64,000 nucleotides of DNA from Pseudovibrio sp. M1P-2-3 (lineage in GTDB: Bacteria > Pseudomonadota > Alphaproteobacteria > Rhizobiales > Stappiaceae). Of the stretch, positions 56,663 through 60,877 are shown piece after piece. The notes beneath the pieces are model-generated. The model saw nothing but the letters and a program-made list of their open reading frames with translations. It made no database searches and was not told where the DNA came from. The position numbers and the translations under genes were made by a program. The DNA is taken from NCBI RefSeq assembly GCF_031501865.1, contig NZ_JARRCW010000001.1, positions 1,494,501-1,558,500 of the forward strand, in the 5' to 3' direction. The stretch's first letter is position 1; each line of letters begins with the position of its first letter.

Positions 56663-57379
56663 ATGACTGATTTACTAGCTGCAAACAGTAACCATGCCTT
56701 GACTATGAGTAGTCGGGAGATAGCTGAGTACACGGGTAAGGAGCACTATAATGTCATTCGTGACGTTGAAAAGATGCTTGATGAACTGGAAATAGATCGC
56801 CTCAAATTTGAGGGCATCTTTAAGGATACGTATGGGCGGGACCAGAAGTGCTACAAGCTCCCGAAAGACCTTACCTTAACTCTGGTAGCTGGCTACAGCG
56901 TCAAGCTTCGCAAAGCTATCATTGACCGTTGGCAAGAGCTGGAAGAGCAGGCGGGGGCAGGGTTCAGAGTTCCTCAAAACTTCAAAGAGGCTCTTTTACT
57001 GGCAGCGGATCAACAACAGGTCATCGAGGACCAACAGAAGGTCATTGAAGAAAGTAAGCCTGCCGTTGCCTTCGTTGAAAACTACACCCGCGCCCAGACT
57101 GGCAATCTGAACTTTCGGGAAGTTTGCCGGAACCTCAAGGCTAATGAACGGGAGTTCAAACGCTTCCTTATTCAAAGAGGCGTTCTGGCGGATAAGAACA
57201 GCATCTATCCCTACAAGCACCATATCGAAGCAGGCCGGTTTAAAGTCACAGAAGGCTTGACTGATAACGGTCACGCATACCGACAGGCCCGATTTACTCC
57301 AAAAGGCTTTGAATGGGTTTCGCGGTTGTGGGCTGAGGAGCTGGGGCGGCGGGCATTGGAAGAGCAGGGGGCAGCGTGA
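56663..57379 (+). CDS. Rha/KilAC-type phage regulatory protein (antirepressor)
   Basis: A 238-residue two-domain protein. N-terminal Rha domain: TMSSREIAEYTGKEHYNVIR, FEGIFKDTYGRDQKCYKLPK, GYSVKLRKAIIDRWQELEEQ. C-terminal KilAC domain: NFREVCRNLKANEREFKRFL, KHHIEAGRFKVTEGLTDNGH, RFTPKGFEWVSRLW, the antirepressor domain that binds DNA. It may control the switch to lytic growth. AAGGAA precedes ATG 56663. Stop overlaps the methyltransferase start (GTGA). Confidence 0.85.
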   Translation: MTDLLAANSNHALTMSSREIAEYTGKEHYNVIRDVEKMLDELEIDRLKFEGIFKDTYGRDQKCYKLPKDLTLTLVAGYSVKLRKAIIDRWQELEEQAGAGFRVPQNFKEALLLAADQQQVIEDQQKVIEESKPAVAFVENYTRAQTGNLNFREVCRNLKANEREFKRFLIQRGVLADKNSIYPYKHHIEAGRFKVTEGLTDNGHAYRQARFTPKGFEWVSRLWAEELGRRALEEQGAA

Positions 57380-58152
57380 ACTATTACAACGAAATAGACC
57401 CATATGCAGCCCAATGGCTGCGCAATCTGATTTCAGAGCAATTAATTCCAGGAGGGGAAGTTGATGAGCGAGACATACGAGAGGTGGACCCAGACCGACT
57501 TAGAGGATTTCATCAGTGTCATTTCTTTGCGGGAATTGGGGGATGGAGCTACGCCCTCCAGCTCGCTGGATGGCCGGAAGAAAGATCAGTGTGGACCGGA
57601 TCGTGCCCATGCCAGCCCTTCTCGACAGCAGGTAAGGGAAAAGGAACAAAAGACGCGCGGCACCTGTGGCCTGCCTGGTTTAGCCTCATTGAAGAGCGCT
57701 GCCCTCCAGTCATCTTTGGAGAACAAGTTGCGAGCAAGGCAGGGCTTGAATGGCTCGACATTGTACAAACTGACTTGGAAAACACGGGTTACGCCACAGG
57801 GGCGGCGGATTTGTGCGCTGCGAGCGTCAAAGCTCCCCACGTCCGACAGAGACTATACTGGTTGGGCCACTCCGACAGCCAGGGACTACAAGGACAGGGG
57901 CGACTTGTCGGGCGGCATGATCCGGAAGGATGGAAGGCTCAGAGACGACACTGTTCCGCGACAGATTTTTGGAGCGACGTTGATCGGGTCAATTGCTGGA
58001 GTAGAAAAATACGACCAATTAAATCCGGCTCATTCGGGGTGGTTAATGGGGTATCCGGAACAGTGGGACGCCTGCGCGGTTTTGGCAACGCCATAGTGCC
58101 TCAAGTAGCTGCAGAGTTTATCCAGGCGTTTGAGGAGGCAAGGGCAGCATGA
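57376..58152 (+). CDS. Phage DNA (cytosine-5) methyltransferase
   Basis: A 258-residue C5 methyltransferase. Motif [10 protein letters not shown] (residue 50), motif [10 protein letters not shown] with nucleophile Cys 79, motif VI FGEQV (canonical ENV; Gln-Val here), motif [12 protein letters not shown], and motif [16 protein letters not shown] near the end. The target-recognition region is short. It would protect phage DNA from restriction. Start GTG 57376 overlaps the upstream stop and has only a weak binding site. A second conserved-looking ORF is nested in another frame over most of its length. Confidence 0.88.
57464..58096 (+). CDS. Overprinted phage ORF nested in the methyltransferase gene
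   Basis: A 210-codon frame entirely inside the methyltransferase gene. ATG 57464 has AGGAGG exactly eight bases upstream, the strongest binding site in this operon. The product has blocks I recall from phage hypothetical proteins that occur beside methyltransferases: [43 protein letters not shown], and [20 protein letters not shown]. Such blocks would not be expected in a chance frame. Both frames share DNA for their C-terminal motifs. Function unknown; it could equally be a database artefact of a strongly conserved methyltransferase, though the binding site argues otherwise. Confidence 0.6.
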
Positions 58153-58475: not shown

Positions 58476-58513
58476 TTCACTTTTCGGGGCAATAGAAAGC
58501 GGTGGGCATAGAC

Positions 58514-59119
58514 ATGAGCACATTAGGTAACAAAAAAGAGACAAATCGGGCAATGCAGCGGGATTACGAGCTTATCAAAGCATTTGTGGAGTCTGGTAAA
58601 TTCAATTGGTACGTTGCCCAGACAAACCCCAATTGTGAGGAGCGAGCCTACCAAAGTCTCAAGTCGATTACTCCTCTGGTCTGGCTTCCTATGATGCCAT
58701 ACACACGCAAAGCGCCACGCTCAAAGCGGCACTTGGACAACAGCAGGCCAATGTTTGTGCGCTATGTATTCGTTGGGCTGGATCCAAGGGACGGGTTAAC
58801 AACAAGCCATTTACGCGGATGCGATGGCGTGGAAACCTTCCTTGCGAGTAAGAAGGATATTGAGCCTCATGTGGTCTGCGTAAAAGAGATGGTGAATATT
58901 GTAGATGCAGCCCATGACGCTCAGTTCAAGCAGAAGAATATTCTAGGCAAACACTTTGCCATTGGTGACAATGTGATGCTGGTTGCAGGTGCATTCGGAA
59001 CTGTAGAGGGGACAGTGCGAGACATACGGGGCGGCGGCAAATCAGTACGTGTTGACCTGAAAGACACAGGGTCAGTTAAATCGGCAGTTGTGCCAATTGA
59101 CAGTCTCGCGCTTGCTTAA
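58514..59119 (+). CDS. NusG-like transcription antitermination protein, phage-encoded
   Basis: A 201-residue NusG paralogue. NGN domain: NWYVAQTNPNCEERAYQSLK, LVWLPMMPYTRKAPR, RPMFVRYVFVGLD; KOW motif near the C-terminus: FAIGDNVMLVAGAFGTVEGT. It is likely to act on RNA polymerase during phage late transcription, as RfaH/NusG paralogues do for long operons. Placed shortly before the late genes. GTG 58502 is the outer limit; ATG 58514 is preferred. Confidence 0.82.
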   Translation: MSTLGNKKETNRAMQRDYELIKAFVESGKFNWYVAQTNPNCEERAYQSLKSITPLVWLPMMPYTRKAPRSKRHLDNSRPMFVRYVFVGLDPRDGLTTSHLRGCDGVETFLASKKDIEPHVVCVKEMVNIVDAAHDAQFKQKNILGKHFAIGDNVMLVAGAFGTVEGTVRDIRGGGKSVRVDLKDTGSVKSAVVPIDSLALA

Positions 59120-59289: not shown

Positions 59290-59907
59290 CTATGCCGGCA
59301 ACTTACTTAATTGAGACTGAAACCTATGAAAGTCGCTTCGAGAGTTCGCTTTAGGAAAGGGTGTGCTGGGGACAGGTTTGCGCAAAAAGTCACATAGTGG
59401 TTCCCAGCCTTCTTGAACGGAATAGGTCAGGAGACGGTTCTTTGAGAAGGCATCCTGAACATTCTTAATATTCTGCTCGTAGCTTTTGATGATAACGTCG
59501 CGGTTCTCAATATTCCCGTTGAACCCTTTTTTTACTATTAAGTCATTGGATAGAAAAGAGGGGCCTAAATTTTTCCGTAGGATAGCTAGAACTGTACTTT
59601 CCATGCTTTCGTACCAGCTACGAGCATCTCTGATTGTTAAGATAAGTCTTGCTTTTGGGTAATAGGAGGCAAGTTCTCGCCAGAAAAGAGCGGCAGGCCA
59701 ATCACATGCTGCCTTATAACCATTAAATACTTGATCCCAGTCTGGCTTATCTCCTTGGGCTATATTTTGCCACATAGCTAGACGCTTTGGGAATGGAAGT
59801 ATTTCTGACATATGGTAACACGGGCCAACCCCAAGAGTTTCCAGTGCGAGCTTCAGCGAGACAGTACCTGTTCTCGGGTAACCTGTGCCAATGATAGAAA
59901 GTCCCAT
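59290..59907 (-). CDS. Sulfotransferase-family protein (prophage cargo)
   Basis: A 205-residue sulfotransferase: PAPS-binding loop GTGYPRTGTVSLKLALETLG at the N-terminus, the 3'-phosphate site RLILTIRDARSWYESM, and a terminal TPFPKANS. It should transfer sulfate from PAPS to a carbohydrate, lipid or other hydroxyl. It is on the opposite strand to its neighbours and its flanks are AT-rich, the pattern of a lysogenic-conversion (moron) gene. ATG 59907 has GGAG upstream. Confidence 0.85.
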   Translation of the reverse strand: MGLSIIGTGYPRTGTVSLKLALETLGVGPCYHMSEILPFPKRLAMWQNIAQGDKPDWDQVFNGYKAACDWPAALFWRELASYYPKARLILTIRDARSWYESMESTVLAILRKNLGPSFLSNDLIVKKGFNGNIENRDVIIKSYEQNIKNVQDAFSKNRLLTYSVQEGWEPLCDFLRKPVPSTPFPKANSRSDFHRFQSQLSKLPA

Positions 59908-60130
59908 GTTTTACTCCAAAAGCGACTGTATATCGTTAACAAAGCTTCTATCTCATCAAAAAAACTGCAGCGAATCATATTTAAGTTACTTCAACTTTAC
60001 TGAAGGAGGTCCGCCTAGCATCCTCCTCTAAGACCCTACCAAGGGCCGCTAGGGTTGATCTTCTAGCGTTTATTTTCTCCTCCACTCTGAGTATACTCAG
60101 AGGATTATTTTATGAATATAGGTGGACATA

Positions 60131-60877
60131 ATGTACGGGCTTAAACGCAAGCTGATTGTGCTTGCATCATTAATATTTGTAGCAACTGGGGCGCATGCTG
60201 AGCCGCCTGTTAAGCTCTCCAAGAGCAAGATTTGCCATGCAACAGATAGTAAATGGTACAAGAGGACAAAGAACTACACATCTTATGATAGCTTAGATGA
60301 ATGCTTAAAGGTAGGAAGACTACCCAAAGGCTATATCTACAAAGGTAATACGGCAATACCGCCGAAAGCCGTTTCAAGCTCCGGCACAAGTAAATCAGGA
60401 AAGTACGACCGGGATTATTTCGGTTCTTGGATTGATGATGATGGCGACTGTCAAAATACCCGCCACGAGCTACTTGCGAAACTCAGTACACAAAAGCCTA
60501 ACTATACCTCTAATGGCTGCCGTGTTGTTCGCGGGCGTTGGTTAGACCCGTACACGGATCGGGTATATCTAGAATCCAAGAATCTGGATGTAGATCACCT
60601 AGTGCCGCTTAAATGGGCCTGGGACCACGGAGCGAATACCTGGAGCAAGTCAAAACGGGTACAGTTTGCGAACGATGAGCGTAATCTGTTTGCTGTAGAT
60701 GCGGGAGAAAATAGGGCAAAGAGCGCTCAGTCACCGCTTACTTGGATGCCGCCAAATACTAAGTTTCATTGCGAATACATGACTAGATTTAAACGTGTCG
60801 TGTTGATCTATAAGCTACAATTCACACCACGGGAATCTCAGGCATATAATGCTAAAATGACCCAAGTTTGTGGGTAA
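60131..60877 (+). CDS. Secreted HNH nuclease (DUF1524 family)
   Basis: A 248-residue protein with a signal peptide (LKRKLIVLASLIFVATGAHA). The catalytic part is near the C-terminus: LDVDHLVPLKWAWDHGANTW, with the DH pair, and QFANDERNLFAVDAGENRAK, with the N..N pair, as in the extracellular nuclease group of DUF1524. Six or more Cys suggest disulfides (CRVVRGRW, FHCEY, MTQVCG). It may degrade DNA outside the cell. AGGTGG precedes ATG 60131. A terminator follows. Confidence 0.82.
   Translation: MYGLKRKLIVLASLIFVATGAHAEPPVKLSKSKICHATDSKWYKRTKNYTSYDSLDECLKVGRLPKGYIYKGNTAIPPKAVSSSGTSKSGKYDRDYFGSWIDDDGDCQNTRHELLAKLSTQKPNYTSNGCRVVRGRWLDPYTDRVYLESKNLDVDHLVPLKWAWDHGANTWSKSKRVQFANDERNLFAVDAGENRAKSAQSPLTWMPPNTKFHCEYMTRFKRVVLIYKLQFTPRESQAYNAKMTQVCG

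Follow-up and report, generated by a model that had tools for sequence, protein, structure and literature searches.

Two overlapping genes of a Pseudovibrio prophage-like region probably encode the halves of one C5-cytosine DNA methyltransferase

Introduction

In a prophage-like region of Pseudovibrio sp. M1P-2-3, two long genes overlap in different frames of the same stretch of DNA, and their sequences indicate with a probability of roughly 0.87 that they encode one C5-cytosine DNA methyltransferase made as two proteins, here referred to as alpha (outer frame) and beta (nested frame). The sequence evidence is of five kinds, namely, I) both frames are kept open in relatives; II) the start signal of the nested gene is conserved; III) synonymous change in alpha is suppressed; IV) the methyltransferase motifs are divided between the two proteins; and V) their order on the DNA agrees with that of a one-piece enzyme. 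Alpha and beta are most likely subunits of one split enzyme because the nested frame supplies motif IX. Both proteins would then be translated, assemble, be active and have a protective role, and the pair may have originated from a one-piece gene through two compensating frame changes.

In one-piece C5-methyltransferases the variable region lies between motifs VIII and IX, and this DNA-recognition region forms, together with motif IX, the small domain. In the mechanism proposed here, both proteins would be made off one message, with beta initiated at its own ATG behind an AGGAGG inside alpha. Beta would provide the variable DNA-recognition region and motif IX, and alpha the rest, including AdoMet binding, the catalytic PCQ loop and motif X. 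The alpha-beta heterodimer would methylate a specific sequence in phage DNA. Lone phage methyltransferases usually serve in protection from restriction, and the simplest role of the pair would be to shield the phage DNA from host restriction.

Genes of 200 codons that overlap in different frames are frequently dismissed as curiosities or annotation errors. The alpha/beta pair offers an overlap that can be traced across many genomes and that has a clear functional logic, i.e., a single enzyme divided into two proteins with common coding DNA. Since existing records annotate alpha alone, beta alone or both, and beta is without a Pfam match, a number of the database entries named 'hypothetical protein' or 'methyltransferase' probably each represent half of one enzyme. 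The pair may serve as a natural system for the co-evolution of frames and for the passage from a one-chain enzyme to an out-of-frame heterodimer, and the class as a source of naturally split methyltransferases.

The locus and its surroundings

The window, i.e., the whole stretch of 64,000 nucleotides that was analysed, carries the two genes downstream of an antirepressor gene (Table 1). Both frames were found with the limits and lengths given in the first-pass annotation, beta lying in the +1 frame relative to alpha, and the AGGAGG eight bases before the nested ATG and the protein blocks quoted for the nested frame are likewise present. The GTG start of alpha, which had been described as weak, turned out otherwise: it overlaps the stop of the antirepressor gene, and its predicted duplex with the anti-Shine-Dalgarno sequence reaches -9.4 kcal/mol, versus -10.8 kcal/mol for the ATG of beta. 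From this overlap, the translation of alpha may be coupled to that of the antirepressor gene.

Table 1. Features of the alpha/beta locus (window coordinates)
Feature	Position	Strand	Basis or remark
Rha/KilAC antirepressor gene, 5' of alpha	56663..57379	+	its stop overlaps the alpha GTG
alpha: putative C5-cytosine methyltransferase large subunit	57376..58152	+	258 aa, GTG start
alpha II-III-like N-terminus, residues 3-37 (includes VDERDIREV)	57382..57486	+	TIGR00675 and N-terminal pieces of relatives, weak
AGGAGG, predicted ribosome-binding site of beta	57450..57455	+	8 bases 5' of ATG 57464
beta: nested +1-frame gene, putative small subunit (variable region and motif IX)	57464..58096	+	210 aa, ATG start
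alpha motif I FFAGIGG, residues 50-56	57523..57543	+	alignment to canonical-order model, E=0.0007
alpha motif IV SCPCQPFS with catalytic PCQ, residues 76-83	57601..57624	+	
beta conserved hairpin block, residues 97-123	57752..57832	+	invariant or near-invariant columns in alignment A3; confident beta hairpin in model
alpha motif VIII RQRLYWL, residues 157-163	57844..57864	+	
beta variable region with WxTPxxxD module, residues 133-180	57860..58003	+	starts where alpha motif VIII ends; alignment
beta motif IX, residues 186-201	58019..58066	+	hhalign to in-frame motif IX; highest four-fold constraint, 3.29-fold
alpha motif X LRGFGNAIV, residues 233-241	58072..58098	+	on DNA directly 3' of beta motif IX

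The region looks like a prophage because matches to a phage integrase and to the small subunit of a terminase were obtained in the window. Directly 3' of the methyltransferase locus, a prophage NusG-like protein is encoded at 58502-59119 (PF02357, E=6.1e-12), followed on the minus strand by a sulfotransferase-domain gene at 59290-59907 (PF17784, E=4.2e-59) that is flanked by phage-like genes. The C-terminal domain of GmrSD restriction endonucleases was matched at 60122-60877 (PF07510, E=1.5e-13), 2 kb downstream and on the same strand as the methyltransferase. No restriction gene was recognised directly adjoining alpha and beta.

The nested frame as a probable gene

Very probably, the nested frame is a gene in its own right and no shadow of the outer one. 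Among the best 80 of 243 viral alpha relatives, 70 loci remained after 10 near-duplicates had been removed by eye, and the +1 frame was open for at least 200 codons in 68 of these 70, versus 31-104 codons for the +2 frame. Of the two misses, one (L071) was a wrong choice of frame and in fact has a +1 frame of 235 codons, while the other (L057) has broken frames. Stops in the nested frame of homologues, which the first-pass annotation had named, if frequent, as a sign against a gene, are therefore rare.

For the statistical tests, 84 loci were assembled (80 viral loci, three annotated phages and the window). Eight of these were excluded because they were incomplete, broken, over-long or matched only in part, and the removal of near-duplicates reduced the other 76 to 63. 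Synonymous codons were permuted within alpha in 500 runs per locus. In the window, the +1 frame within alpha extends over 216 codons, compared with 76 codons on average and at most 167 in the shuffled sequences (0/500 reach the observed length). The observed +1 length was reached in 0/500 shuffles at 19 of the 63 loci and in at most 5/500 at 41; at the other 22 loci more than 5/500 and up to 65 shuffles reached it. With the +2 frame as a control, no locus (0/63) had 5/500 or fewer.

Constraint on beta should protect the four-fold sites of alpha, because any third-position change that is synonymous in alpha alters a second codon position of beta. The ratio of observed to expected identity at these sites was 1.18 before the start of beta (control), 1.2-1.35 for alpha codons 31-75, 1.7-1.8 for codons 76-105, 2.5-2.8 for codons 106-150, 1.8-2.1 for codons 151-210, and 3.29 for codons 211-225, which cover motif IX. 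Beyond the beta stop of the window it was still 1.73, above the upstream control; in most relatives beta continues there. In six independent close pairs, the share of differences that fall on third positions was 0.70 before beta (n = 53), 0.68 in the N-terminal part of beta (n = 79) and 0.41 in its core (n = 425). Beta is thus constrained from about residue 47 onward. Over its first ~45 residues, neither four-fold sites nor close pairs gave constraint higher than outside the overlap, beyond the frame staying open. The lowered alpha-synonymous change in the overlap that the first-pass annotation had looked to is accordingly present over beta from about residue 47 and absent over the part before it; likewise, constraint on both frames, the criterion for an overlapping gene pair, was found except over these first ~45 residues.

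The start signal is conserved as well. An ATG in the beta frame at +70 to +150 with a pairing of -5 kcal/mol or better is present at 46 of 61 loci, compared with 19.1 loci on average and no more than 26 in 100 shuffled runs, so loss of the signal in homologues, which was looked for as a counter-sign, is not the rule. The original leaning towards a real overprinted gene, rather than a database shadow, is hence supported by frame openness, start signal and synonymous constraint.

Distribution of the methyltransferase motifs over the two proteins

Alpha matches PF00145 (E=1e-14; 55.2 bits against a curated cut-off of 22) and the PHROG phage 'DNA methyltransferase' family phrog_363 (E=7.5e-74). 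Motifs I, IV (with PCQ), VI, VIII and X were found in it and II-III are probable, but motif IX was not seen in the alpha chain. The claim that the outer frame carries all main C5-methyltransferase motifs therefore needs to be amended twice, since IX is absent and motif I sits behind a II-III-like N-terminus. An AlphaFold2 model of alpha has a well-modelled core (mean pLDDT 77.8) and falls below a pLDDT of 50 at residues 81-86, 174-199 and 218-236, the latter two stretches being those where beta encodes the variable region and motif IX. With this model, the top PDB matches in Foldseek were M.HaeIII and M.HhaI, with both of which the IV-VIII core of alpha aligns.

Beta of the window matches phrog_1008 (E=2.7e-21) and phrog_31772 (E=5.9e-11), both described as DNA methyltransferase families. 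A known Pfam domain was considered for beta and ruled out: no Pfam or NCBIfam match was found for the window protein, and a Pfam search with 42 members of alignment A1 gave no significant match. Motif IX of beta was aligned by hhalign to the in-frame LSPLFVEWMMGLPPG of a Streptomyces enzyme (E=3.6e-5, probability 71%). The stretch between VIII and IX carries conserved modules in beta and is of low confidence in the model of alpha. On the DNA, motif VIII (alpha) is followed by the variable region and motif IX (beta) and then by motif X (alpha), which is the arrangement found in a one-piece enzyme, apart from two changes of frame. Scanning with a peptide pattern of the one beta sequence gave no relatives; alignment A3 used as the query recovered them.

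Modelled alone with AlphaFold2, beta gave a poor result (mean pLDDT 59.7) with one confident hairpin. Against the PDB, its sequence gave one chance match (E=0.23) and a profile search none, and a fold search with the low-confidence model returned nothing at E <= 0.001. The poor model of the lone protein fits, but does not prove, that beta is a half-domain that would fold only on its partner. Between VIII and IX, the W-x-T-P-x-x-x-D module is present in 0 to 7 copies per +1 ORF when counted with a loose pattern; such modules are perhaps modular recognition elements that were added stepwise with both frames kept. The beta of the window ends at ATP, and in most relatives it continues with an SSRKSRR-like basic tail (58067-58149; L003-L085).

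Apparent permutation of motif I in alpha

In alpha of the window, motif I (residues 45-66, model positions 9-30) is followed directly by IV-VIII (residues 72-170, model positions 73-170), and model positions 31-72 are missing between them. The piece before motif IV aligned best to motif I of the canonical model in 60 of 62 relatives, with E <= 0.01 in 20 of 62, and the N-terminal piece aligned best in the motif II bin in 50 of 62, with E <= 0.01 in 0 of 62. TIGR00675 aligned alpha 3-166 to profile positions 25-161 with a score under the model cut-off; like it, several PADLOC methyltransferase models begin at alpha residues 3-6 with profile positions beyond motif I. Six canonical-order proteins in the alignment are without the motif I-after-II-III order of the window branch. 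A whole-domain search with 63 alphas gave two or more colinear matches in 34, one match in 23 and a permuted order in six, and by itself did not demonstrate a permuted order in these 63. Given the position of motif I directly before IV and that of the weak N-terminal matches, the phage branch to which the window belongs looks as if it had undergone a local permutation that placed motif I behind a II-III-like sequence, the II-III match being weak.

Comparison with known enzymes and annotated phages

M.HhaI and M.HaeIII carry all motifs in one chain and one frame. Two-subunit enzymes include M.AquI (specificity CYCGRG) and M.EcoHK31I (specificity YGGCCR), and the small subunit of the latter is reported to be encoded in an alternative frame inside the large-subunit gene. 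By analogy of the motif split between subunits, M.EcoHK31I may be regarded as the closest known case. PMC3404938 describes it as two polypeptides, the larger with I-VIII and X and the smaller alone with IX, and places the predicted recognition domain in the large subunit. In agreement with that description, alpha of the window has I, IV, VI, VIII and X (II-III probable) without IX, and beta has IX. The window pair differs in that the region between VIII and IX apparently lies in beta and not in the large subunit where that text places it, in that motif I follows a II-III-like sequence, and in that it is a prophage locus where no directly adjacent restriction gene was recognised. M.AquI is described in the same source (PMC3404938) as two subunits split between VIII and IX; the window enzyme is also divided there, but whereas the small M.AquI subunit is described as having both IX and X, the window keeps X in alpha and has its genes nested in two frames.

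The same pair in the same frames is present in the Escherichia phages K1H and fTaEco01, where both ORFs are annotated, as 'C-specific methylase' or 'DNA cytosine methyltransferase' with a nested 'Mte8-like protein'; these records name the two ORFs separately and do not present them as one enzyme. The beta of K1H matches phrog_1008 and is 38% identical to that of the window. In Paenibacillus phage Tadhana (gp54/gp55), the nested +1 ORF also has motif IX (beta matches phrog_1008 with E=1.6e-74), but alpha is in the canonical order I-II-III-IV. Both ORFs are annotated in phage PhiXhv-18, the beta frame alone in Xanthomonas phage FoX4 (L084; the alpha frame is unannotated), and alpha alone in mycobacteriophage Rhynn.

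Occurrence across phages, plasmids and phyla

Distant alpha matches were obtained on a Lacticaseibacillus plasmid, an archaeal Methanomethylovorans plasmid, a Paenibacillus plasmid and phage, and a mycobacteriophage. These five alphas have the canonical motif order, no in-frame motif IX, and a +1 ORF that ends in motif IX. They were used, together with one Streptomyces protein with an in-frame IX, as seeds of a canonical-order scan of the best 80 genome and best 80 viral loci, of which 156 could be classified and four could not. In these best-80 lists, motif IX was found in the +1 frame only at 133 of 156 loci, in frame 0 only at four and in the +2 frame only at one, and was unrecognised at 18; since the seed favours nested members, these counts are not shares of all C5-methyltransferases. 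Seven of the 18 were read by eye, with a variant IX in the +1 frame in five, in frame 0 in one, and none in one. Genome loci showing the +1 pattern come, by their record titles, from phyla that include Bacillota, Bacteroidota, Pseudomonadota, Actinomycetota, Planctomycetota, Verrucomicrobiota and Omnitrophota, many of them being from metagenome bins in which contamination is possible. Among 147 canonical-order loci, at most 2/200 shuffles reached the +1 length at 37 of 39 loci with a GC content of 40-50%, 52 of 62 at 50-60% and 15 of 46 above 60%; for the +2 frame this was the case for 0, 1 and 5 loci, respectively.

In a survey of 249 genomes from the same phylum as the window, the beta profile matched in 13, all 13 at loci that also match alpha; in one (G032), the alpha-matched and beta-matched pieces lie side by side. 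Alpha itself matched in 68 of the 249, many of these being just distant one-piece enzymes, and phrog_1008 in 12, every one at an alpha locus. Among the best 80 beta-seeded viral loci, alpha is in the -1 frame in 80/80, two of which were judged by eye (L289, with a damaged alpha, and L321). The alpha frame has both PCQ and motif X at 74 loci, and at four it has PCQ with X unrecognised, i.e., L305 (runs off the contig end), L310, L311 (SNAIC) and L315 (stop). Beta away from alpha was not found in either set. The viral relative L321 has PCP for PCQ and GDAIV for GNAIV in alpha and an open beta, and this pair is possibly inactive or re-purposed.

It seems somewhat more probable than not that out-of-frame split C5-methyltransferases form a class of ancient origin, present in a range of bacterial phyla and on at least one archaeal plasmid, in which the segment order of a one-piece enzyme is read in alternating frames, and which would rank among the most widely distributed prokaryotic overlapping gene pairs. 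Within it the layout would evolve, with IX in the alpha frame in actinobacterial loci and motif I behind II-III in the phage branch of the window. By title or abstract, none of the literature found reports the layout as widespread; prior recognition is possible, subscription papers being mostly beyond the search. What appears to be new is the breadth of the layout, the variable region in beta, and motif I after a II-III-like sequence (with weak scores).

Alternative explanations

The nested frame could be open and look conserved simply through the methyltransferase protein and its codon usage, any translation of it being purposeless. GC-rich loci do often give long +1 frames in shuffles (above 60% GC, only the 15 of 46 loci mentioned beat them), 22 of the 63 loci of the statistics set exceed 5/500, and the first ~45 residues of beta look unconstrained. 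However, synonymous change in alpha is reduced over the conserved part of beta but not in a control stretch of the same gene, the window reaches 0/500, the start signal is kept, and at 133 of 156 loci (best-80 lists) of another branch the motif IX missing from alpha lies in the +1 frame; the synonymous-site and start-site tests rule this reading out, and its probability is put at very little. That the window carries a plain one-piece methyltransferase disrupted by a frameshift or a sequencing error is practically negligible as an explanation: it would take merely two frame changes to arrive at the pair, but the same split and frames recur across viral, canonical-order and beta-seeded loci and in phages K1H, fTaEco01, Tadhana and PhiXhv-18, and this breadth refutes it.

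Two further readings accept the translation of the nested frame, and each is considered improbable. In one of them, the beta region would be made mainly as an alpha-beta fusion through a +1 ribosomal frameshift near motif VIII and not from its own start. The variable region indeed begins in the +1 frame at the end of motif VIII (57860-57864), such that one shift would give a fused chain of I-VIII, variable region and IX; this fusion would be without motif X, a strong ribosome site with an ATG is conserved upstream, and the constraint on beta begins some 80 codons before motif VIII and includes a block that a late shift would skip. In the other, no likelier, the overprinted gene would be real but its product would serve a different function, for instance the regulation of the methyltransferase or the inhibition of a host enzyme, and alpha would be active by itself. 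That neither the sequence of beta nor its low-confidence model matches a solved structure is in line with this, but beta ends in the very motif IX that alpha is without, and it was not found away from alpha in the genome survey or the best 80 beta-seeded viral loci. Moreover, at five actinobacterial loci IX lies in the alpha frame and is missing from the +1 frame, as expected for parts of one enzyme.

Variants and a second copy

These five actinobacterial loci (L089, L138, L154, L170 and L172) have IX and X both in frame 0 and would represent a different partition of the same enzyme with the frames still overlapping. Their +1 ORFs carry LPTP modules and end in GQLT or GQLS plus a few residues.

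The genome of the window holds a second copy of the pair (L002; G000:C1:2309946-2310710, minus strand) with 90% DNA identity, in which alpha has a stop before motif X and beta is open. Counted by alpha bases, the copies differ at 36 positions in 4-258, 27 in 268-423, one in 424-723 and six in 724-777. This distribution, with a single difference over 300 bases of the 3' part (424-723), suggests a recent exchange between the two copies. A transposase-like ORF, recognised by eye, lies directly 5' of the second copy.
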